Shown here: in pieces, positions 12,349-38,345 of the stretch
Position numbering within the stretch: position 1 is the stretch's first letter
How the letters are laid out: every line of letters begins with the position of its first letter
From: Phormidium tenue FACHB-886
GTDB taxonomy: Bacteria; Cyanobacteriota; Cyanobacteriia; Elainellales; Elainellaceae
Direction of reading: 5' to 3'
Assembly: GCF_014764505.1 (NCBI RefSeq)
Contig: NZ_JACXWX010000002.1
Span: 1-64,000, forward strand
DNA length: 64,000 nt
Translations under genes and position numbers: made by a program
The notes under the pieces: model-generated
Database searches by the model: none
What the model was told of the DNA's origin: nothing
Seen by the model: the letters and a program-made list of their open reading frames with translations, nothing else

Positions 12349-15300
12349 TCAAACAGAAGTCTCTGCTTCATCTGCTGCCTGCAGCATTTCCTGAGGAAGT
12401 GCCCCAGACGGCGAATTTGAGGCGGGTGGTGGGGGAGCAGGTGCAGAGGGACGACGAGCGACTTCCGACCAGAGCGAATAGCCCAAGAGTCCGGCAATTA
12501 AGCCGCTAACCCCTAGTAAGACGGCGGTATACAGCCAGGGAGTGTTAGTTGCTTCGATCGTTCCTGCCGTTGAATAATCTCGTCCGTTGCCAATTGTACC
12601 GCCTTCGAAAGTGGGTCGATCGGCTGCTAAGCCACCCGCACCCACAAGCCCCGCTGCCACCACTGCTGCTTCAGACATGCCGTTGGCTTCGGTGTCTTCA
12701 GAATAGGCTGGTGGCATATTGTCTGTCTCCCAGCTGTTTGTATGAGCAAGCCGGACATCCTCTTCGGTAAAGGCATCTGGATCAAGCCCCAATGAGAGAT
12801 TGCCAACTTCGTCCAAATCACTTGGTGGATCAATTGGTGGTTCAGCAGGCAACGATGGGGAACCCAAAAAGCGTTCCTCCTGAAAATCTAGTGAATTTGA
12901 ACTTACGGGGTGGTCTTCCGGCAGGAAATCAATATCTGCTGGGCTAGGTGTTTCATCGGCAAAGGCAGCATCTGCATCTAGCTCTAACGGATCAAATGTG
13001 GCTTCTGTGACTTCTTCTGAGAGTCGATCGTCTGAGAGCGGAATTGGCGGGGCTGGAAATAGCTCTGGAATTGCTGCCTGCTCTGGCTGTGACTCCTGCG
13101 GCTGGTCAAGCAGATCCGGCGGTAGATCATAGAATTCATCGATGGTCACAGACGCACTTTGAGCAGGCGGAGCAGTTGGGGTATCGAAGAAATTAGATGA
13201 GAGTTCTAAATCGGGAGCCAAGCTGTCGTCTGTTGTCGGGTCTGCTAGATCTGCTAGCGTTGCATCGACTGCATCAGGGACACTAGGATCAACTAAGCTA
13301 AAAAGCTCTGCTTCAGAAACTGCCGGAGCTGTTGCCGCTTCTGCTTCTGGTAAATCATCTAGATCATCCAGCGTTAGACCTGCCAGCTCTGCTTCAAAAT
13401 CATCGTCTGCTGTAGGCGATTCAGTTGATGCTGTTGCAGGTTCTTCCAACACATCAATGCCTAAGTCATCCTGGAGCGGATCGTGCATGAGGTTGGCGAT
13501 CGGCTCGTCCGGTGTTTCGTCTAGCAGGTCTGGCGACAGTTCTGCTAGCTCTACTTGTGAAAGTCCTGCCCCAAAAGATTCATCAGCGGGAAAGTCATTG
13601 GTTATGGGACTGTCGATCGACCCTGAGGGAGCCTCTAGGGGTTCTGCAAATAGATCGTCAAGGGTAGTATCTGAGGCAGTAGCTGGATCGGCAGTAACAT
13701 AATCAGACGGCGGCAGGGGTTCCTCAGCGAGAAAATCAAAAGACAATGACTCTAGGGGCGTACTGGGGCGGTCGATCGGCTCTTCCGATATGGGTTCTGG
13801 TGTTGGCTGAGCTGATTCGTCTGGTAAGTCAAACAGCAGCTCGTCCTCCCAATTTTCGGGAGGAGGAAGGGTTGGGTCATCGGCGACTTCTGCTAGGAAG
13901 GTTTCGTCGAGATCTGCCGATTCGGCAGGGATTTCTTCAAGCGGTAAGAGTGCATCTTCTGTCAGTGATGTACCTGTCTCGTCTAGGGGAGGAAGAGTTG
14001 GGTCATCGGCGACTTCTGCCAGGAAGGTTTCATCGAGATCTGCTGATTCGGCAGGGATTTCTTCAAGCGGCAAGAGCGTGCCTTCTGTCAGCGATATATC
14101 TGTCTCGTCTAGGGGAGGCAGAGTTGGGTCATCGGCGACTTCTGCCAGGAAGGTTTCGTCGAGATCTGCTGATTCGGCAGGGATTTCTTCAAGCGGCAAG
14201 AGTGCGTTCTCTGCCAACAGTCTTTCCTCCCAACCTCTGGGCAGTAATAGGGTGGGCTGCTCGGCAGCTTCTGCTAGAGAGGCTTCATCAAATGCTGATT
14301 CAGCAGGGATCTCTTCGATTCTCGGTAGATCGCCCTCCAGCGATAATTCTCCGCCCGGCGGTGCTTCTAGAGTCTCTTCCAACTGTAAGATTGGCTCATC
14401 ATTATTTGGGGCATCCCCAAACAAAGCGGCTAGAGATTCATCAGTTGATTCGCTAGCAAAGCTGGAAAAGATGATCGGTTCTAGCTCTGATATTTCCTCT
14501 ATTTCTGTTGCTTCTGTGGCTTCGGCGGGCGCTGCTTCCAGGTCAAACAGAGGATCTTCTAAACTGTCTAGAGTAGATGGCTGAGAATCTGCGACGAGCG
14601 GACTCTCGCTTGTAAGCGTCTCCCAATCGAACGTCAGATCTGATGAAGCGATTGGCGAATCAATTGGTTCTTCTTCCAGCTCAAAGGTTGGCTCTTCGCT
14701 TTGTTCTGCCCAAAGGTTGTCGATCTGTGCTTCTAGCTCCTGCTGGGCAGAGTTGGCTGCATCCAAATCGAGCGATTGCTCATTTGGAGCTGCAAAAAGG
14801 TCTTCTGGCAATGGAGCTACGGGCTCAACATCCCCTTCAGTTTGCAGAGGCGGTGCTTCTGGTTCTGCCGCGTCAAATACATACTCAATCGGTGCTTCAT
14901 TTAGCCCCTGTAGCTCATTCAGCCAATCCTCTGGAATAGGCTGCTCGCTAGCATCAGCAGCTGCAGGTTCGATCACAGTGGGTTGAGCAAAAGTGAGGTC
15001 AGTAGAGAGATCAGACAAATCATCTACTGGCTCAGCCGCAGTGGGTTGAGCAAAAGTGAGGTCAGTAGAGAGATCAGACAAATCATCTACTGGCTCGTCA
15101 ACTGCTTCCGTCAGAGCTTCCGTCGGAGTGATCGCTTCTGCATATTCATCAAGCGAAAGTAGATCAACTTCTTCTAAAGGCTCGCTAGCGGGGGTAGAAT
15201 CTGTCACGGCTAGCTCAAAGGAGGTTAGCTCATCTGGTGGAGCATCTGACCCAAACAAATCTTGCAGCGATGCCACTAATGATTCGTCATCTAGCTCTTC

Positions 15301-17166
15301 CAAAGCCGATGGCGAGGTAGGTAGAGCAGTCTGATCGCCTAGCGCCTCGCTCAGTGGGTCTGGGTCAGCTGTTGGTGGCACGACTGGCTCGTTGAGATCA
15401 AGCGTAAATAGCGAATCATCAAGAGTGGGGGATTCTTCGAGGGGTGAGTCCGAATCGTCTGCTGCTGAAGAATATAGCTCGGCTTGAGGATAGGGTTCTG
15501 CTGCAAATAAACCAGATAGTTCCGGTTCTGACGATTCTGTGTCTGGTGCTACATCAAACAAATCCTCTAACGTTTGTAGTGATTCTGCTGTAGCTGCATC
15601 AGGTGGAGTGAGGTCTACTGGCGGAGGGACAGGTTCCTGTTCAGCTAGTTCATCTTCCACAAAGAAGGTCTGGAATGTATCTGGCTCAACCGGATCAGAA
15701 GTTTCCTCTTCATGTCCAAACAGATCGGCCGGAGGGGTCAATGGTTCTTCTAACGATGTGGCAAACAGGTCTGCTGTTTCTGACGGGGTTGCCTCTCCGC
15801 TAGGTTGTAGCTCCTTAGTAAACAAATTCTCGATCGCCTCGGGTTGATCTGGTTGATCTGTTGTAGGGCTCTCTTGGGCAAACAAATCCTCGATCGCCTG
15901 GGGTTGATCTGCTGCGGGACTCTCTTGGGCAAACAAATCCTCGATCGCCGGTTGATCTGTTGTAGGGCTCTCTTCGGCAAATAGATCCTCGATCGCCGGT
16001 TGATCTGTTGCAGGGCTTTCTTCGGCAAATAGATCCTCGATCGCCTGGGGTTGATCTGCTGCGGGACTCTCTTCAGTGAATAGATCCTCGATCGCTGATT
16101 GATCTGTTGTAAGGTTCTCCTCAGTGAATAGATCCTCGATCGCTGGTTGATCTGTTGTAAGGTTCTCCTCGGTAAATAGATCCTCAATCGCCTGGGGTTG
16201 ATCTGCTGCGGGACTCTCTTGGGCAAACAAATCCTCGATTGCCGGTTGATCTGTTGTAAGGTTTTCCTCGGTAAATAGATCCAGATCCTCGACCGCTGGT
16301 TGAGCTGTTGTAGGACTCTCTTGGGCAAACAAATCCTCGATTGCCGGTTGATCTGTTGTAAGGTTCTCTTCGGTAAATAGATCCTCGATCGCCGATTGAT
16401 CTGTTGTAGGACTTTCTTCAGCAAACAAATCCTCGAGCGAGCCAGCCTGATTTACTGTAGAGCCATTGTCTATCAGCAGGTCTTCAACTGAAGCGGTAGG
16501 AGGTTCTGGATTTAGCTCTGGTGAATCTTCAGCAAAAAGATCCTGAAACTCGGCTTCAGAGATCGGTTCTGTAGGAGCCAGTAGATCGTTGAGCAGATCG
16601 TCGTTGGCAGGTTCTGCCCAAAGGCTTTGGAGCTGCGCCTCAAGCGCCAATTGCTGTGGATCTGCTGCAAATGAATCGATCGACTCTTCCAGAGAGCGAT
16701 CGTCCAAATCCAACGGTGTATCTGACGGAAGCTCTAGCAGCGACTCCTCCAGCAGCAGGCTGTCATCTGTGGGGGATAGATCAAGCATCTCCGCGGGCTG
16801 CACGTCTGGATCAGAGAGATCACCAGCCGGCAACTCTGGCGAGACGGGGGGCTCGGCTAATTCTAGAGGAAAGGCTGCCAAATTGAGTTCTTGCATCCAG
16901 GTGGGAAAGGTTGCACCCGTTTGCTGCCCCACGATCCGAACTGAGCGAACCGACTCGATGCCAAGGTTGTCAATTCCTTTTTGAACGAATGCTGTCAGCG
17001 CATCCCGATTGGGAACCCGTTCGGCTTCCAAAATCACCTCCAGCACATCTCCCTGTCGATCGACAAAGGCAGTCATGCCGCGTGGTTGAAGTGACTGGTT
17101 CATGAGGGTGGCGATGGCATCAGGGTCACCCTGCTTGGCTAGTTCGAGAACGTGTGGCTGTGTCAT
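12349..17166 (-). CDS. Very large acidic tandem-repeat protein with C-terminal membrane anchor
   Basis: 1605 residues with three parts. (1) Residues 1-105 form a folded module (LAKQGDPDAIATLMNQSLQPRG ... VRIVGQQTGATFPTWMQEL) that I recall at the start of other cyanobacterial proteins. (2) About 1400 residues are extremely acidic and rich in Glu, Asp, Ser, Thr, Pro, Leu, with tandem arrays: about 13 units of some 16 residues (AIEDLFTEENLTTDQP type), a 21-residue duplication (DDLSDLSTDLTFAQP), and three 42-residue units (LPLEEIPAESADLDETFLAE type). (3) Near the C-terminus, TPWLYTAVLLGVSGLIAGLLGYSLW is one membrane helix followed by a short Pro-rich tail. Function unknown; it could be a tethered scaffold or entropic spacer. 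The open frame of 4.8 kb with all repeats in multiples of three shows it is coding. Confidence 0.85.
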   Translation of the reverse strand: MTQPHVLELAKQGDPDAIATLMNQSLQPRGMTAFVDRQGDVLEVILEAERVPNRDALTAFVQKGIDNLGIESVRSVRIVGQQTGATFPTWMQELNLAAFPLELAEPPVSPELPAGDLSDPDVQPAEMLDLSPTDDSLLLEESLLELPSDTPLDLDDRSLEESIDSFAADPQQLALEAQLQSLWAEPANDDLLNDLLAPTEPISEAEFQDLFAEDSPELNPEPPTASVEDLLIDNGSTVNQAGSLEDLFAEESPTTDQSAIEDLFTEENLTTDQPAIEDLFAQESPTTAQPAVEDLDLFTEENLTTDQPAIEDLFAQESPAADQPQAIEDLFTEENLTTDQPAIEDLFTEENLTTDQSAIEDLFTEESPAADQPQAIEDLFAEESPATDQPAIEDLFAEESPTTDQPAIEDLFAQESPAADQPQAIEDLFAQESPTTDQPDQPEAIENLFTKELQPSGEATPSETADLFATSLEEPLTPPADLFGHEEETSDPVEPDTFQTFFVEDELAEQEPVPPPVDLTPPDAATAESLQTLEDLFDVAPDTESSEPELSGLFAAEPYPQAELYSSAADDSDSPLEESPTLDDSLFTLDLNEPVVPPTADPDPLSEALGDQTALPTSPSALEELDDESLVASLQDLFGSDAPPDELTSFELAVTDSTPASEPLEEVDLLSLDEYAEAITPTEALTEAVDEPVDDLSDLSTDLTFAQPTAAEPVDDLSDLSTDLTFAQPTVIEPAAADASEQPIPEDWLNELQGLNEAPIEYVFDAAEPEAPPLQTEGDVEPVAPLPEDLFAAPNEQSLDLDAANSAQQELEAQIDNLWAEQSEEPTFELEEEPIDSPIASSDLTFDWETLTSESPLVADSQPSTLDSLEDPLFDLEAAPAEATEATEIEEISELEPIIFSSFASESTDESLAALFGDAPNNDEPILQLEETLEAPPGGELSLEGDLPRIEEIPAESAFDEASLAEAAEQPTLLLPRGWEERLLAENALLPLEEIPAESADLDETFLAEVADDPTLPPLDETDISLTEGTLLPLEEIPAESADLDETFLAEVADDPTLPPLDETGTSLTEDALLPLEEIPAESADLDETFLAEVADDPTLPPPENWEDELLFDLPDESAQPTPEPISEEPIDRPSTPLESLSFDFLAEEPLPPSDYVTADPATASDTTLDDLFAEPLEAPSGSIDSPITNDFPADESFGAGLSQVELAELSPDLLDETPDEPIANLMHDPLQDDLGIDVLEEPATASTESPTADDDFEAELAGLTLDDLDDLPEAEAATAPAVSEAELFSLVDPSVPDAVDATLADLADPTTDDSLAPDLELSSNFFDTPTAPPAQSASVTIDEFYDLPPDLLDQPQESQPEQAAIPELFPAPPIPLSDDRLSEEVTEATFDPLELDADAAFADETPSPADIDFLPEDHPVSSNSLDFQEERFLGSPSLPAEPPIDPPSDLDEVGNLSLGLDPDAFTEEDVRLAHTNSWETDNMPPAYSEDTEANGMSEAAVVAAGLVGAGGLAADRPTFEGGTIGNGRDYSTAGTIEATNTPWLYTAVLLGVSGLIAGLLGYSLWSEVARRPSAPAPPPPASNSPSGALPQEMLQAADEAETSV
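13860..14225. repeat. 126-bp coding tandem repeat, about three units
   Basis: Units begin near 13860, 13986 and 14112 (period 126 = 42 codons). They encode the EEIPAESADLDETFLAE repeat of the large acidic protein. Near-identity at DNA level points to recent duplication. Confidence 0.8.
14976..15101. repeat. 63-bp coding duplication
   Basis: The segment starting CAGTGGGTTGAGCAAAAGTG at 14976 is repeated from 15039 (period 63 = 21 codons), almost without change. It encodes the DDLSDLSTDLTFAQP duplication in the large acidic protein. Confidence 0.8.
15830..16440. repeat. Coding minisatellite of about 48-bp units, about 13 copies
   Basis: Each unit contains AAATCCTCGATCGC or AATAGATCCTCGATCGC followed by GGTTGATCTG. 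Units of 48 or 51 bases, always a multiple of three, encode AIEDLF(A/T)(E/Q)E(S/N)-type repeats. The CGATCGC core matches part of the HIP1 octamer. There are no unique spacers, so this is not a CRISPR array. Confidence 0.85.
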
Positions 17167-33026: not shown

Positions 33027-33746
33027 ATGAGCAGTAATCTAGCAACCAAGTTGCGCGAAGGTACTAAAAAATCACATTCAATGGCAGAAAACACAGGCTT
33101 TATTGCTTGTTTTCTGAAAGGCACGGTTGAAAAGAACTCTTACCGCAAGCTGGTCGCGAACTTCTACTATGTCTATTCTGCAATGGAAGAAGAAATAGAG
33201 CGGCACCGCAATCACCCTGTGTTGTCTGGAATTTACTACCCTGAACTCAACCGCAAGGCAACTCTGGAGCAAGATCTGGCCTTCTACTACGGCGTAAATT
33301 GGCGCGAGCAAATTGCCCCTTCGCCTGCTGCTGAAGAGTATGTGGCTCGGATTCGGGAAGTCTCTAACACCGCGCCAGAGCTGCTTGTGGCTCATGCCTA
33401 CACCCGCTACATTGGCGATCTCTCGGGTGGACAAATCCTTAAGGGGATTGCAGTACGGGCAATGGGTTTGTCTGAGGGCAAAGGCACGAACTTCTACGAG
33501 TTCAAAACTATCTCGGACGAAAAAGCCTTCAAGAAGCAATACCGGGAAGCGATGAACAATCTGCCGGTAGATGAGGCAACTGCCGATCGCATCGTTGATG
33601 AAGCAAACGACACTTTTGCGCTGAACATGAAGATGTTCAAGGAGCTAGAAGGTAGCTTGATCAAGGCGATCGGGCAAATGCTGTTTAGCAGCCTGACTCG
33701 CCGCCGGAATCGCGGCAGCACGGAACTGGTGACGGATAACGGCTAA
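33027..33746 (+). CDS. ho1: Heme oxygenase (biliverdin-forming)
   Basis: 239 residues, cyanobacterial HO-1 length. The proximal heme ligand is His17 in TKKSHSMAENTGF; the distal helix carries YIGDLSGGQILKGIA; YRKLVANFYYVYSAMEEEI and NFYEFKTISDEKAFKKQYR are further signatures. It opens heme to biliverdin IXalpha with ferredoxin electrons, the first step to phycocyanobilin and phytochrome chromophores. The C-terminal tail (SSLTRRRNRGSTELVTDNG) is polar. It is monocistronic, 288 bases from the divergent mlaE. The likely terminator is a long repeat-containing hairpin at 33780-33866. Confidence 0.96.
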   Translation: MSSNLATKLREGTKKSHSMAENTGFIACFLKGTVEKNSYRKLVANFYYVYSAMEEEIERHRNHPVLSGIYYPELNRKATLEQDLAFYYGVNWREQIAPSPAAEEYVARIREVSNTAPELLVAHAYTRYIGDLSGGQILKGIAVRAMGLSEGKGTNFYEFKTISDEKAFKKQYREAMNNLPVDEATADRIVDEANDTFALNMKMFKELEGSLIKAIGQMLFSSLTRRRNRGSTELVTDNG

Positions 33747-33779
33747 GTATCGTAACTCGACTCAAAGCTGGGTGAGCTG

Positions 33780-33866
33780 GGTGTCAGGGGTCAGGGGTTC
33801 GGTCTATCGGTGGGGGTTACCCGCGATCGACGATTGCCTCTCTGCCTCCTGACACCTAATTTTTTG
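33780..33866 (+). terminator. Long hairpin with GGTGTCAGG repeat, probable ho1 terminator
   Basis: GGTGTCAGG (33780-33788) pairs with CCTGACACC (33848-33856), followed by TAATTTTTTG. The left side has GTCAGGGG twice (33782, 33789), the kind of heptamer-like repeat found between many cyanobacterial genes. Confidence 0.5.
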
Positions 33867-33968
33867 CTCTAGATGCCATCTGGGCATCTGACGCGTTCTA
33901 TAGCATTTTTAGAAATCCAGCCTGCGATCGGCTGTTTGATTCTCACCCAGGTTCTTGTATTCTCCGCG

Positions 33969-34289
33969 TCAGGATGAGTAAGCTTCTGCCTCCTCTTCTG
34001 AGACAATAATTAGCCCATTTGAGAGGCTGCCGACTACTCCACCCATGATTTGTTTTGTCAGATTGTCATACGATCGCACATCCAATGAAGGAGCAGGATC
34101 ATTGATTTCATAGCATGGCGATCGTTGCTCTTGGAAAATATCTTGAGCTGACAATACTGTCCCTTCTAACTTGGCGATTAGAGCGTCTGCTTGCTCTCGC
34201 AGATCTATTGCTTTGATCTCGGCTGTCTCTGCTTTGGCGGTCTGGAAGTCATAGACCTTCAGTACTTCTTGAATTCGGCTGAAGTGAGC
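33969..34289 (-). pseudogene. In-frame continuation of the CHAT gene past its stop codon
   Basis: After TAA (34290-34292) the same frame stays open for 106 codons to TGA at 33969-33971. The first part, AHFSRIQEVLKVYDFQTAK followed by AETAEIKAIDLREQADALIA, aligns with two repeat units before the stop (LYQVKQALQVNDLRTARAEA and LDEIQRVLEVDDFITAKLEA). It then runs on with DIFQEQRSPCYEINDPAPSL and ends EEEAEAYSS. So this is the third repeat and original C-terminus of the CHAT protein, cut off by one nonsense codon, unless the stop is read through or a sequencing error. No good start codon precedes it; a TTG at 34154 exists. Confidence 0.75.
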
Positions 34290-36287
34290 TTATTCGACTT
34301 GCTGTTGAGCGCTATCAGAAGGGATATCAGAAGGGGATGGGAGCTGCGAACTTGTGGGGGCAGTATCTGCGTCTAGGTTGTTAAGCGGTGTCTGTGGAGT
34401 AATTTCAGTCTGTGGAGTAATTTCAGTCTGTGGAGTAATTTCAGTCTGTGGAGTAATTTCAGTCTGTGGAGTAATTTCAGTCTGTGGAGTAATTTCAGAG
34501 GAGGTGCCTGTAGGGGTTGATTCTTGTGGGGACTGCCGCCTTCTGGGGGCAAGCTCTTGTTCTTTATCAGCAATTAAGGCTTTTGCATCTTCCCTCAAAG
34601 AGCGTATCCCAATCCTTGCTGCCTCTGCTCTAGCAGTTCGCAGATCATTAACCTGCAAGGCTTGCTTAACCTGATACAGCCGTTCCTCCTGTTCTACCTG
34701 CCATGCTATTGATGCATCAGACCCTTGTTCTTTGCTAGCAACGACAGTATTTGCCTGCTGTTTCCAGTAAACCGTTACTATTTTTGCGGCTTCTAGCTTA
34801 GCAGTTATGAAATCATCGACCTCCAAGACTCGTTGAATCTCGTCTAGATGAGTCTGGTCAGCATCCCAATCCTTCTGCCATTGGGAGATTTTAGCTTGGG
34901 CTTGAGCATTGACCGGACTTTGCGGCGGAATTGATTGCAAAATAGAGATCGCTTCACCGGGTCTGCCCTGATCGTATGCTGTTTGGAGTTGAGTCAGCAG
35001 CTTGTTGTACCAGTCTTGTGCTAGAGATTGCGCCTTGGCATGAGTGGGTTGATTCGAAGCAATATGGATGAGGGCAGCGATCGCGCCTACTAAATCACCG
35101 CTGTTACCGCTGCTTGCCTGCTGCTCAGCGTTTCTAAGGATTTCTGCTGACTTAGTTTGACCTGGAATTAGCAACGGATAGCCCCAGATCACCATTCCTG
35201 CACCCAGTACCCCTAAAACTCCTCCTAGTAGAATCTTTTGCTTAAGCCAAGAGCGACGGACAGGTGGAGTTTGAGACACAGCCTGAGAAAACGTTGGATC
35301 TAACAAGGGCTGGATCGAAGAAACTGTAGCAGCCCTAAACGGCTGAGGTTCTACCTTGACTAGTGCTTGGCTCGGTTTGGAGGCTGCAAAGCGGAGCTGT
35401 TCTTCTTCTTGAAAAATCTCGATAGCTTCGGCTGGTCCTAATCCAAGCTGCTGCGCCAATTGCCCAAGCTGAAACTTCTCCTCCGAAGATAAAACATTGT
35501 CTATGAGACACTCTCGGACGCAATCCCGATATTGCTTTAGCGCTGCTTCCTGCTCTAGCGCTTCGGAAACGTCCTGTTCAATTTCTGCTCGTTTGTTTTT
35601 GGAGGTTGGTATAGCAGGAGGGTTACTAATACTGTTTGATTGCACCAGCGTTTGCCGCTTTTTAAAGACAGGCTTCAAATGTTCGGGAATGACGGTGGGA
35701 GTGCGGGGTATGGTAGTCACTGGTACCAGCTTGCGCTCTTGCTGTGTGGTAGACGATCGCGCAACTGTGGTGGTAGGTGGCATCAACTCGATCGCATTAC
35801 AACCAAACTGATATGCCTCCTCGGTTACTCTTCCGTAGCCCAGCGCCCGATAAAAACCCGTGGCAAAAGCGATCGCCGCATCATCGAGAATGGTTTGGCT
35901 CATGCCAATCACATAGTTAATGTGCTGCGAGATTGCATCTGCTTGCACCTCGGAGTAGCACGCATTTAGCAGGACGCATTCCACCTTGCCAGTGAATAAC
36001 TTAAACAAAGACGAGAGTGCACTAGTGCTAACAAGCTGTTCCCGTCCCGCAGAGTTTTGGAGAACTAAACCTTGTTCTCCGGTTCCATGTCCACAGAAAT
36101 GAACGATCTGGGGTTCATAGTCCAGTAACAGCTCTTGAAGGTCATCCGGGCGCACCGCAGACCCAACTCTGACTTCAAACTCGTCTCGATTTTTCGATCG
36201 CTTAACAACACCTTCTAAATCACGGATCTCTCGATCTAAGGCTAGATCGCGCTTTGGGTTAGAGGCAAGAATCAGGATTCTTCTCAT
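34290..36287 (-). CDS. CHAT-domain (caspase-like) protein with transmembrane helix and C-terminal repeats
   Basis: 665 residues. The N-terminal CHAT peptidase domain (1-170) opens MRRILILASNPKRDLALDRE and has the catalytic dyad His67 (IVHFCGHGTG) and Cys110 (LLNACYSE). A helical region (about 240-310, DCVRECLIDNVLSSEEKFQL) follows, then one membrane helix at about 350-370 (LLGGVLGVLGAGMVIWGYPLL), a helical repeat region with at least two units (LDEIQRVLEVDDFITAKLEA; LYQVKQALQVNDLRTARAEA) and a Thr/Pro/Gln array of six EITPQT units. CHAT proteases work in programmed cell death-like and antiphage pathways; this one has a fixed membrane anchor. The frame is interrupted by TAA (34290) inside a third repeat. 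The domain itself is intact. Confidence 0.88.
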   Translation of the reverse strand: MRRILILASNPKRDLALDREIRDLEGVVKRSKNRDEFEVRVGSAVRPDDLQELLLDYEPQIVHFCGHGTGEQGLVLQNSAGREQLVSTSALSSLFKLFTGKVECVLLNACYSEVQADAISQHINYVIGMSQTILDDAAIAFATGFYRALGYGRVTEEAYQFGCNAIELMPPTTTVARSSTTQQERKLVPVTTIPRTPTVIPEHLKPVFKKRQTLVQSNSISNPPAIPTSKNKRAEIEQDVSEALEQEAALKQYRDCVRECLIDNVLSSEEKFQLGQLAQQLGLGPAEAIEIFQEEEQLRFAASKPSQALVKVEPQPFRAATVSSIQPLLDPTFSQAVSQTPPVRRSWLKQKILLGGVLGVLGAGMVIWGYPLLIPGQTKSAEILRNAEQQASSGNSGDLVGAIAALIHIASNQPTHAKAQSLAQDWYNKLLTQLQTAYDQGRPGEAISILQSIPPQSPVNAQAQAKISQWQKDWDADQTHLDEIQRVLEVDDFITAKLEAAKIVTVYWKQQANTVVASKEQGSDASIAWQVEQEERLYQVKQALQVNDLRTARAEAARIGIRSLREDAKALIADKEQELAPRRRQSPQESTPTGTSSEITPQTEITPQTEITPQTEITPQTEITPQTEITPQTPLNNLDADTAPTSSQLPSPSDIPSDSAQQQVE
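34391..34498. repeat. 18-bp minisatellite, six identical units, in the CHAT gene
   Basis: TCTGTGGAGTAATTTCAG is repeated six times without a change from 34391 to 34498. It encodes (EITPQT)6 on the minus strand. Perfect identity suggests recent expansion and length variation among strains. Confidence 0.95.
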
Positions 36288-37001
36288 GGGGCTGATGAAA
36301 GATGAAGAGTGACTTGATCTGGAACTGATGCAAAAGAGTTTAGAAAACCCATACTGGCGCTATTGGCATTTGTAACGAGCGCTAAGTAACGCATCTCGTT
36401 TAGAATGCAGCACACCACAAAGTAGAGAGGATGTGCATTTCCCATGCTGCAAAATCAAACAACTCTCAGCTTTCGGCTAATGGTAGGCACCACATGGAAT
36501 AAACCCTGGATCTTCAGAATAAGGGGATTAATTTTATACAACGTGCCGCTTAATCACAAATTAATCTTTTGTCATACCTCCGAAGAGAGACTTAACACTT
36601 CACAAAGCTCCAACTTGAATGCAAGTTAAACTCTGTAGTAGCGAAATGCTGAGCGCTAGGGCAATTTAATGAGCCGATCTTCACTAAATTGCTTCGACAA
36701 AAACGATCGATGAGAAGGCGCAGAAACCCTGTAAAAACGACGAGCGATCGTGGGTGCTTGCATCTCACTCGGCGTCTTCTTCACCTTTTATCCCCTCTTT
36801 CGATTAGGGCAATTCAACTTTATTCTTTACACTGATCAGCTTGATTCTGATTGGTGTTGCTATTTGGCTGATGCGCTCTGCTGCACCTAGAACTTGAGCC
36901 TGAGAAGGGAGAAGATAGGGATAGCCCAACAAGCCCCCAATTCAGCGTAAAATGCAAAACACGGCGGTTTGCGCTTCCGATTCCAAACCCCTGATTTTCA
37001 A
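36288..37001. other. 714-base intergenic region, possibly with a decayed small gene
   Basis: The region holds promoters of the divergent CHAT (-) and accC (+) genes. GCAATTTA (36661-36668) pairs with TAAATTGC (36685-36692). At 36750-36897 two overlapping plus frames encode hydrophobic stretches (VGACISLGVFFTFYPLF, then TLFFTLISLILIGVAIWLMR) that could be one small membrane protein broken by a frameshift. No intact gene is supported. Confidence 0.4.
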
Positions 37002-38345
37002 ATGCGCTTCGACAAGATTCTGATCGCCAACCGTGGAGAAATTGCCCTACGGATTCTACGTGCCTGCGAAGAGATGGGCATTGGTACAGTTGCCGTTTAC
37101 TCTACCGTAGACCGCCAAGCCCTGCACGTTCAGCTAGCAGACGAAGCCGTGTGCATTGGGGAGCCGCCAAGCAGCAAAAGCTATCTCAATATTCCCAACA
37201 TCATTGCTGCCGCCCTGACGCGCAATGCTACTGCGATTCATCCGGGCTATGGCTTTTTGGCAGAAAATGCCCGCTTTGCGGAAATTTGCGCCGATCACCA
37301 GATCGCCTTCATCGGTCCCAGCCCCGAAGCGATGCGAGCAATGGGGGACAAATCCACCGCCAAAGAGACGATGATTCGCATCGGTGTTCCTACCGTACCG
37401 GGCAGCGATGGACTGCTGACCGATGAAAAAGAAGCGCTGACGATCGCCCAGAAAATCGGCTATCCGGTGATCATCAAAGCGACGGCAGGTGGCGGCGGGC
37501 GAGGGATGCGGCTGGTGCGCTCGGAAGAAGAGCTGATCAAGTCGTTTCTGGCAGCGCAGGGTGAAGCCGAAGCTGCCTTTGGCAATGCTGGCGTTTATTT
37601 AGAGAAGTTTATTGAGCGTCCCCGCCATATTGAGTTTCAGATTTTGGCAGACGAGCACGGCAACGTGATTCACCTCGGCGAACGCGACTGTTCAATCCAG
37701 CGCCGCCACCAAAAGCTGCTGGAAGAAGCCCCCAGCCCCGCCCTAGACGAAGACCTGCGGCAAAAGATGGGGGCAGCTGCCGTCAGAGCTGCGCAGTCGA
37801 TCAACTACGTGGGCGCAGGCACGGTAGAGTTTTTGCTCGATCGCTTTGGGCAGTTCTATTTCATGGAAATGAACACACGCATCCAGGTCGAGCATCCCGT
37901 GACAGAGATGATCACGGGCTTAGACCTGATTGTTGAGCAGATCCGCATTGCCCAAGGCGAACCCCTGCGCCTGACACAAGAACAGGTGCAAATTCGGGGA
38001 CATGCGATCGAATGCCGCATTAATGCCGAAGACCCCGACCACAACTTCCGCCCCCACCCCGGACGGATCAGCGGCTACTTGCCGCCCGGTGGTCCCGGAG
38101 TGCGGATGGATTCGCACGTTTATACTGATTACGAAATTCCGCCCTACTACGATTCGCTGATCGGCAAACTGATCGTTTGGGGAGCTGATCGCCCCACGGC
38201 AATTAACCGAATGCGGCGCGCCCTACGCGAATTTGCAATTACAGGACTGCCAACCACCATCGGCTTTCACCAGAAAATTTTGGAGAATCGAGCGTTTTTA
38301 GAAGGGGAAGTTTACACGAATTTTGTAGAGCAGATGATGAAATGA
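37002..38345 (+). CDS. accC: Biotin carboxylase subunit of acetyl-CoA carboxylase
   Basis: 447 residues, standard AccC length. [21 protein letters not shown] is the canonical start, which decides for ATG 37002 over an earlier TTG. The ATP-grasp glycine loop is [12 protein letters not shown]; other signatures are [53 protein letters not shown] and [17 protein letters not shown]. It carboxylates biotin on AccB with bicarbonate and ATP, the first step of fatty-acid synthesis. The thioesterase-like gene follows by 34 bases and may be co-transcribed. accB is not adjacent, as is common in cyanobacteria. Confidence 0.97.

Follow-up and report, generated by a model that had tools for sequence, protein, structure and literature searches.

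Probable ordinary decay, and not a two-form switch, at the 3' end of a cyanobacterial CHAT protease gene

The CHAT protease gene and its genomic context

The stretch of Phormidium tenue FACHB-886 DNA analysed here (64,000 nucleotides, referred to as the window) carries on its minus strand an open reading frame for a CHAT protease, which starts at position 36287 and ends with the in-frame TAA at 34290-34292, thereby encoding 665 amino acids (34290-36287, assigned on the basis of the open reading frame, Pfam, PADLOC, and Foldseek). From its N-terminus onward, the predicted protein comprises a CHAT domain with His67 and Cys110, a helical region, a putative transmembrane segment at residues 352-370, TPR-like repeats, and a low-complexity linker. 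The gene is flanked on one side by a gene at 33027-33746, which we take to encode a heme oxygenase and to the product of which NCBIfam assigned no name, and on the other side by accC at 36969-38345 (TIGR00514). Both flanking genes were matched in 33 of the 36 genomes of the order (accC with E 1e-150, the putative heme oxygenase gene with E 1e-60). Of the 32 other genomes of the order, 21 have the two genes side by side, their matches being separated by 144-1173 bases, which leaves no room for the CHAT gene, and in the remaining 11 they lie apart. In the window the CHAT gene splits the pair, with 3225 bases between the two neighbours (33746-36969), so that the CHAT gene would either have entered this site in this lineage or have been lost elsewhere. 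Neither promoter-like sites (2 found, 3.1 expected) nor terminator-like sites (5 found, 3.7 expected) were detected in the region more often than by chance. Elsewhere in the window, an open reading frame of 1605 amino acids (12349-17166) contains several frame-keeping tandem arrays with periods of 126 bp, 63 bp, and 48/99/147 bp, and Pfam recognised no domain over the cut-off in it.

The N-terminal domain matched the Pfam CHAT family (PF12770) with 38.1 bits against a cut-off of 24, and the protein matched the chat model of PADLOC with 4.3e-20, being the only one of eight window proteins for which the PADLOC defence scan returned a match. Moreover, the structure model is confident over residues 1-170 (block pLDDT 89-97), and Foldseek identified the SAVED-CHAT protease 8tl0 as the best structural counterpart (E 1.3e-10), followed by weaker caspase matches (E 4e-3 and above); a sequence profile compared with solved chains returned 8tl0 as the sole match (2.3e-22, residues 3-160). 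A first-pass annotation of this DNA had reported His67 and Cys110, presumably the catalytic pair of the CHAT domain, as intact, and both residues are indeed invariant across an alignment of 50 CHAT sequences. It had also regarded the membrane helix as intact, which agrees with the hydropathy of 1.89 at residues 352-370 (the next best value elsewhere in the protein being 1.18), but not with the structure model, in which this segment has a pLDDT below 50 and no helix assigned. Four basic residues directly precede the putative helix and two are found in the 24 residues that follow it, a weak hint that the protease would face the cytoplasm and the repeats the periplasm. By analogy, the repeats, together with the SH3 domain described below, might have served as a periplasmic sensor or anchor, and a role of the CHAT protein in cell death or antiphage defence could be conjectured from CHAT relatives.

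Two helical repeat units (units 1 and 2, approximately residues 478-585) are encoded at 34533-34856 on the minus strand, as delineated by self-alignment and by the helices of the structure model, which span residues 458-517, 524-545, 549-558, and 562-582 in and around these units. The Pfam model TPR_19 matched the protein with 14.8 bits, under its cut-off of 25, and the structure model has helices at this place. Units 2 and 3 are separated by a TEITPQ-type linker (34390-34498, minus strand) that consists of approximately six perfect 18-bp tandem copies (TRF, 6.1 copies, 100% match), the period of which is a multiple of three and thus keeps the reading frame. This array constitutes a minisatellite within the CHAT gene, and its copy number may differ among strains.

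Repeat homology on both sides of the stop codon

The TAA at 34290-34292 interrupts a third repeat unit (34152-34307, minus strand, with approximate ends), which was recognised by homology, by codon usage behind the stop, and by the pLDDT of the model. The first-pass annotation had described a CHAT gene cut by this in-frame TAA within a C-terminal repeat, followed by 106 open codons, the first of which encode residues that align with two repeat units, and all of this was borne out: the stop is seen in the sequence, and beyond it no further stop interrupts this frame between 34289 and 33972, a stretch of 106 codons, until it is closed by a TGA read from the sequence at 33969-33971. Local alignment of the first 50 residues of this tail with units 1 and 2 gave a score of 84, which was reached by none of 2000 shuffled sequences (maximum 49), and the two other frames of the first 150 bases scored only 20 and 31 against the repeats. 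Within the own genome, tail residues 1-50 matched the two units of the same gene with E-values of 5.8e-4 and 9.1e-4, and a search with the tail up to an E-value of 10 returned the tail itself and these two units and nothing else; at the DNA level, the tail occurs once in the genome. For the last 56 residues of the tail no similarity to the repeats was seen, their score being reached by 444 of 2000 shuffled sequences. In a unit-by-unit alignment, units 1 and 2 both have Gln where the TAA stands, and the VE ahead of the stop is aligned with the VE of unit 2. Furthermore, in a structure model of the read-through product the block of residues 661-710 has a pLDDT of 87-91, and the stop residue 666 is located within a helix (residues 657-677), in an arrangement of helices that resembles unit 2. 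Since the homology crosses the TAA, the stop must have arisen later, within a repeat that was coding, which supports the earlier proposal that a nonsense codon removed the original end of the gene.

The open length of the tail is by itself weak evidence for a coding origin; stretches of at least 106 codons are open in-frame behind 10 of the 64 window frames of at least 150 amino acids, the CHAT gene included. The codon usage of the 106-codon tail (0.191 bits per codon) falls within the range seen when window genes are read in frame (n=115, mean 0.248, sd 0.117) and exceeds every off-frame value (n=230, mean -0.16, maximum 0.107), on a yardstick that was trained on eight of the same window genes with which the tail is compared.

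An SH3 domain split over two reading frames

The distal part of the tail is similar to the initial half of a bacterial SH3 domain found in two other genomes, one represented by L032/L090 (G040) and one by L034 (G010:C320), the latter being a PF08239 match above the cut-off. Taken alone, this first half is a weak match, with an E-value of 0.0035 for one genome, the best of 98 searched. However, an overlapping frame on the minus strand, within an open fragment spanning 33872-34009, encodes TWVRIKQPIAGWISKN, which is like the second half of the same SH3 domain. A profile of this SH3 subfamily, constructed from 30 segments found in 25 of the 30 loci taken, was compared with every six-frame fragment of at least 15 residues in the window (2389 in total). 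First place went to the fragment carrying the second half (24.7 bits, E 2.5e-6, profile positions 44-69, 33881-33961, minus strand), and the tail, in the gene's own frame, ranked second (14.6 bits, E 0.0036, profile positions 8-43, 33993-34109, minus strand), followed by a third fragment with 6.4 bits; the best SH3 score in 20 Markov-shuffled windows was 11.5 bits. The E-value of the second half is free of circularity, since this half was not used in choosing the SH3 family, and removal of the two sequences that had been retrieved by the tail itself from the profile left E-values of 2.8e-6 and 0.0053 for the second and the first half, respectively.

The two halves adjoin in the correct order, approximately 30 bases apart and in different frames, with the TGA that closes the open tail between them. 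The spacing between the NG motif, counted from its N, and the W is 73 nucleotides here versus 14 residues in 29 of the 30 relatives and 15 residues in one, which amounts to a net gain of 31 nucleotides relative to these 30, and this is not a multiple of three. The statement in the first-pass annotation that the reading frame is not shifted is therefore correct at the TAA and incorrect for the tail as a whole, and its account of a single lesion correctly identified the TAA and missed this second lesion further downstream. In its own frame, the second half has a codon usage that is not coding-like (-0.137 bits per codon over 38 codons). A split of the domain over two frames is as expected of sequence that is no longer translated.

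With more general models the relic was insignificant: a generic SH3_3 profile made from nine segments, which represent nine of ten PF08239 loci (L117 was left out because of stops in its stretch), placed the second half fourth in the window with 5.5 bits and an E-value of 2.4, and the first half was absent from its matches up to an E-value of 50. Likewise, Pfam recognised no domain in three pieces of the window, and neither SH3 half. In the spacer behind the relic, an inverted repeat with arms of 15 nucleotides and 87% identity is present at 33780-33856, and its right arm and flank share AGGAGGCAGA (minus strand) with the surroundings of the frame break; judging from this resemblance, the additional 31 nucleotides might stem from a small repeat element.

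Relatives and domain combinations

The source genome (8.9 Mb in 255 contigs) was the sole genome of its genus among those examined. Among the matches listed from 98 genomes none spans the whole CHAT protein, and those listed from the 36 genomes of the order, apart from the protein itself, share 22-44% identity, are found mostly in the repeats, and include none over the whole length. A search of genome contigs with the C-terminal part yielded 76 stretches that reflect sequence pattern and zero relatives, and the corresponding search with the N-terminal part yielded 135 relatives, 80 of which were kept, with best segments that are 39-60% identical. Going by their titles, 79 of these 80 are cyanobacterial and one is from Chloracidobacterium (L198). 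In a search of plasmids, none of the 68 records obtained covers 80% of the CHAT protein. Because these searches brought up no orthologue whose end is intact, the description of the 3' end as decayed is based on domains and not on an intact orthologue.

A domain census was made of 2128 open reading frames of at least 100 amino acids from 230 loci, many of these frames being cut by the ends of the loci. CHAT was detected in 145, the repeats in 45, and SH3 in 40 of these frames. CHAT and repeats are combined in three, namely the window's own gene, L087 (G023), and L105 (G005). Repeats and SH3 are combined in eight, in all of which SH3 is located ahead of the repeats, and none of the 145 CHAT frames in the 230 loci combines CHAT with SH3. 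Cyanobacterial SH3-repeat proteins (L090, L202-L207, and L212) thus share the SH3 subfamily and the repeats with the relic, but differ from it in that they are devoid of CHAT and in that SH3 precedes the repeats. Five loci (L202, L203, L206, L207, and L210, from genomes G086, G059, G073, G053, and G008, respectively) contain two matches to the same SH3 subfamily approximately 1.2-1.4 kb apart, which hints at a conserved two-gene arrangement.

Cyanobacterial relatives of the CHAT part (L071, L072, L073, L104, and L106) are 50-67% identical to the window protein in this part but differ in their C-terminal module, which by eye appears to be FGE-like, TPR-like, or WD40-like. Besides the gene in the window, the own genome (G000) contains further CHAT genes (L071-L074, L097, and L098) with different C-terminal ends and a CHAT part that is 44-67% identical; as judged by eye, L072 and L073 end in an FGE-like module, whereas L071 has TPR-like repeats. 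Judging from these sequences, exchange of C-terminal modules among CHAT genes seems common.

Origin of the present 3' end

The gene very probably descends from a longer ancestor, the product of which began with a caspase-like CHAT protease and continued through a single membrane helix and three or more TPR-like units to a C-terminal SH3 domain. The 3' end of the gene would now be decaying by two lesions, leaving a short form with an intact dyad. As no intact orthologue was found, this four-part ancestor is inferred from its domains only. The domain census speaks for it in the eight proteins that join this SH3 subfamily to the repeats, and against it in that SH3 comes first in these eight and is absent from all CHAT frames. 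The nonsense codon in the third repeat unit (lesion 1) and the frame break with a net gain of 31 nucleotides within SH3 (lesion 2) would both be steps in this decay, and once one lesion had been fixed the remainder would have been free to drift. If the gene is expressed, the cell would make the 665-amino-acid form alone, with the dyad intact and lacking the third unit and SH3. A HetF-like, membrane-anchored CHAT protease would in this manner have lost its distal module on the other side of the membrane, and what is left may be an active protease, may be devoid of its signal input, or may be dying.

As a special case of such decay, the short protein may be the normal, selected form and the tail the remnant of a domain whose loss did no harm or brought an advantage, as would be the case if the lost module had held the protease in check. 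The 665-amino-acid frame itself carries no lesion and retains the dyad, and C-terminal modules vary among the other CHAT genes of this genome, but the promoter-like sites in the region are not in excess of expectation, and we consider this special case possible while rating its chances well below even.

A sequencing or assembly error, which would imply that the 3' end is intact in the real genome, could be suspected because both lesions are located within about 350 bases and the assembly is fragmented into 255 contigs. Such an explanation demands two errors close together, and a net gain of 31 nucleotides is untypical of a miscall. Moreover, the conserved window genes that were scanned, encoding accC, MlaE permease, aconitase B, tRNA methyltransferase, isocitrate/isopropylmalate dehydrogenase, and others, cover their profile models nearly end to end, and full-length conserved genes make generally poor sequence unlikely. 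We therefore regard an error as quite improbable.

It is quite improbable that the stop is read through, possibly in combination with a frame shift, to produce a long form beside the short one, as the first-pass annotation had offered as its alternative to a nonsense mutation. The coding-like codon usage of the tail and the confident model of unit 3 behind the stop are in favour of this possibility, and so is the end of the open tail, which reads TCC TGA C and is preceded by AGGAGG 14 nucleotides upstream. Known +1 shift sites include UCC-UGA in antizyme and CUU-UGA-C in RF2. Plain read-through, however, would yield a product that stops at half an SH3 domain, and a long form ending within SH3 makes read-through for the sake of two forms unlikely. 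A complete long form requires two separate recoding events, one of them at UAA, and the recoded product would contain approximately 10 extra residues inside SH3 that none of the 30 relatives has; among the matches listed in the genome searches, no relatives with the same recoding site were found. In its most elaborate version, rare passage of the UAA followed by a +1 shift at UCC-UGA-C would give a rare long form, the SH3 domain of which tethers or senses outside the membrane, and the common short form would be an unrestrained protease. This version is very improbable, although, if true, a gene recoded twice would represent a novel means of adjusting how much sensor a protease carries. Finally, it is extremely unlikely that the tail is spacer sequence that happens to be open and not homologous coding sequence, since comparably long open stretches do follow other long frames in the window but the shuffled-sequence comparison refutes chance for the repeat part and both SH3 halves score above all 20 shuffled windows.

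The probable decay of the 3' end by two lesions has consequences mainly for annotation, in which the gene should be entered as a CHAT gene whose 3' end has decayed, and regulated read-through should not be proposed for it. A further implication is a layout of CHAT, membrane helix, repeats, and SH3 that was intact in none of the 2128 open reading frames surveyed. The family concerned is one in which the protease appears to be retained and the C-terminal module to be exchanged or lost.

Comparison with known systems

The titles and abstract openings of the literature retrieved contain no report of the window gene or of a decayed CHAT tail, and the parts of PMC3501461 and PMC8283722 that were available make no mention of SH3, pseudogene, truncation, or stop codon. 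CHAT-like domains occur among the variable proteins of cyanobacterial diversity-generating retroelements according to the available part of PMC7517822, and in one Thiohalocapsa target according to that of PMC10907252. The window protein has the CHAT domain in common with the SAVED-CHAT protease (PDB 8tl0), and differs from it in that Pfam recognises no SAVED domain, a putative membrane helix and repeats being present instead.

The closest known layout is that of HetF of Anabaena, a heterocyst and divisome protein which, in the excerpts available of PMC8406250, has an N-terminal CHAT domain, one predicted membrane segment, and a TPR domain. The TPRs appear to follow the membrane segment, if the list in a figure legend of that source is taken as the order of the parts. 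Set alongside this description, the window protein resembles HetF in its N-terminal CHAT domain and may do so in its putative transmembrane segment and TPR-like repeats. The two differ in the CHAT part, which in the same excerpts comprises residues 1-555 of HetF, versus about 170-300 residues in the window protein, and the HetF description there is without SH3, unlike the proposed ancestor of the window gene.
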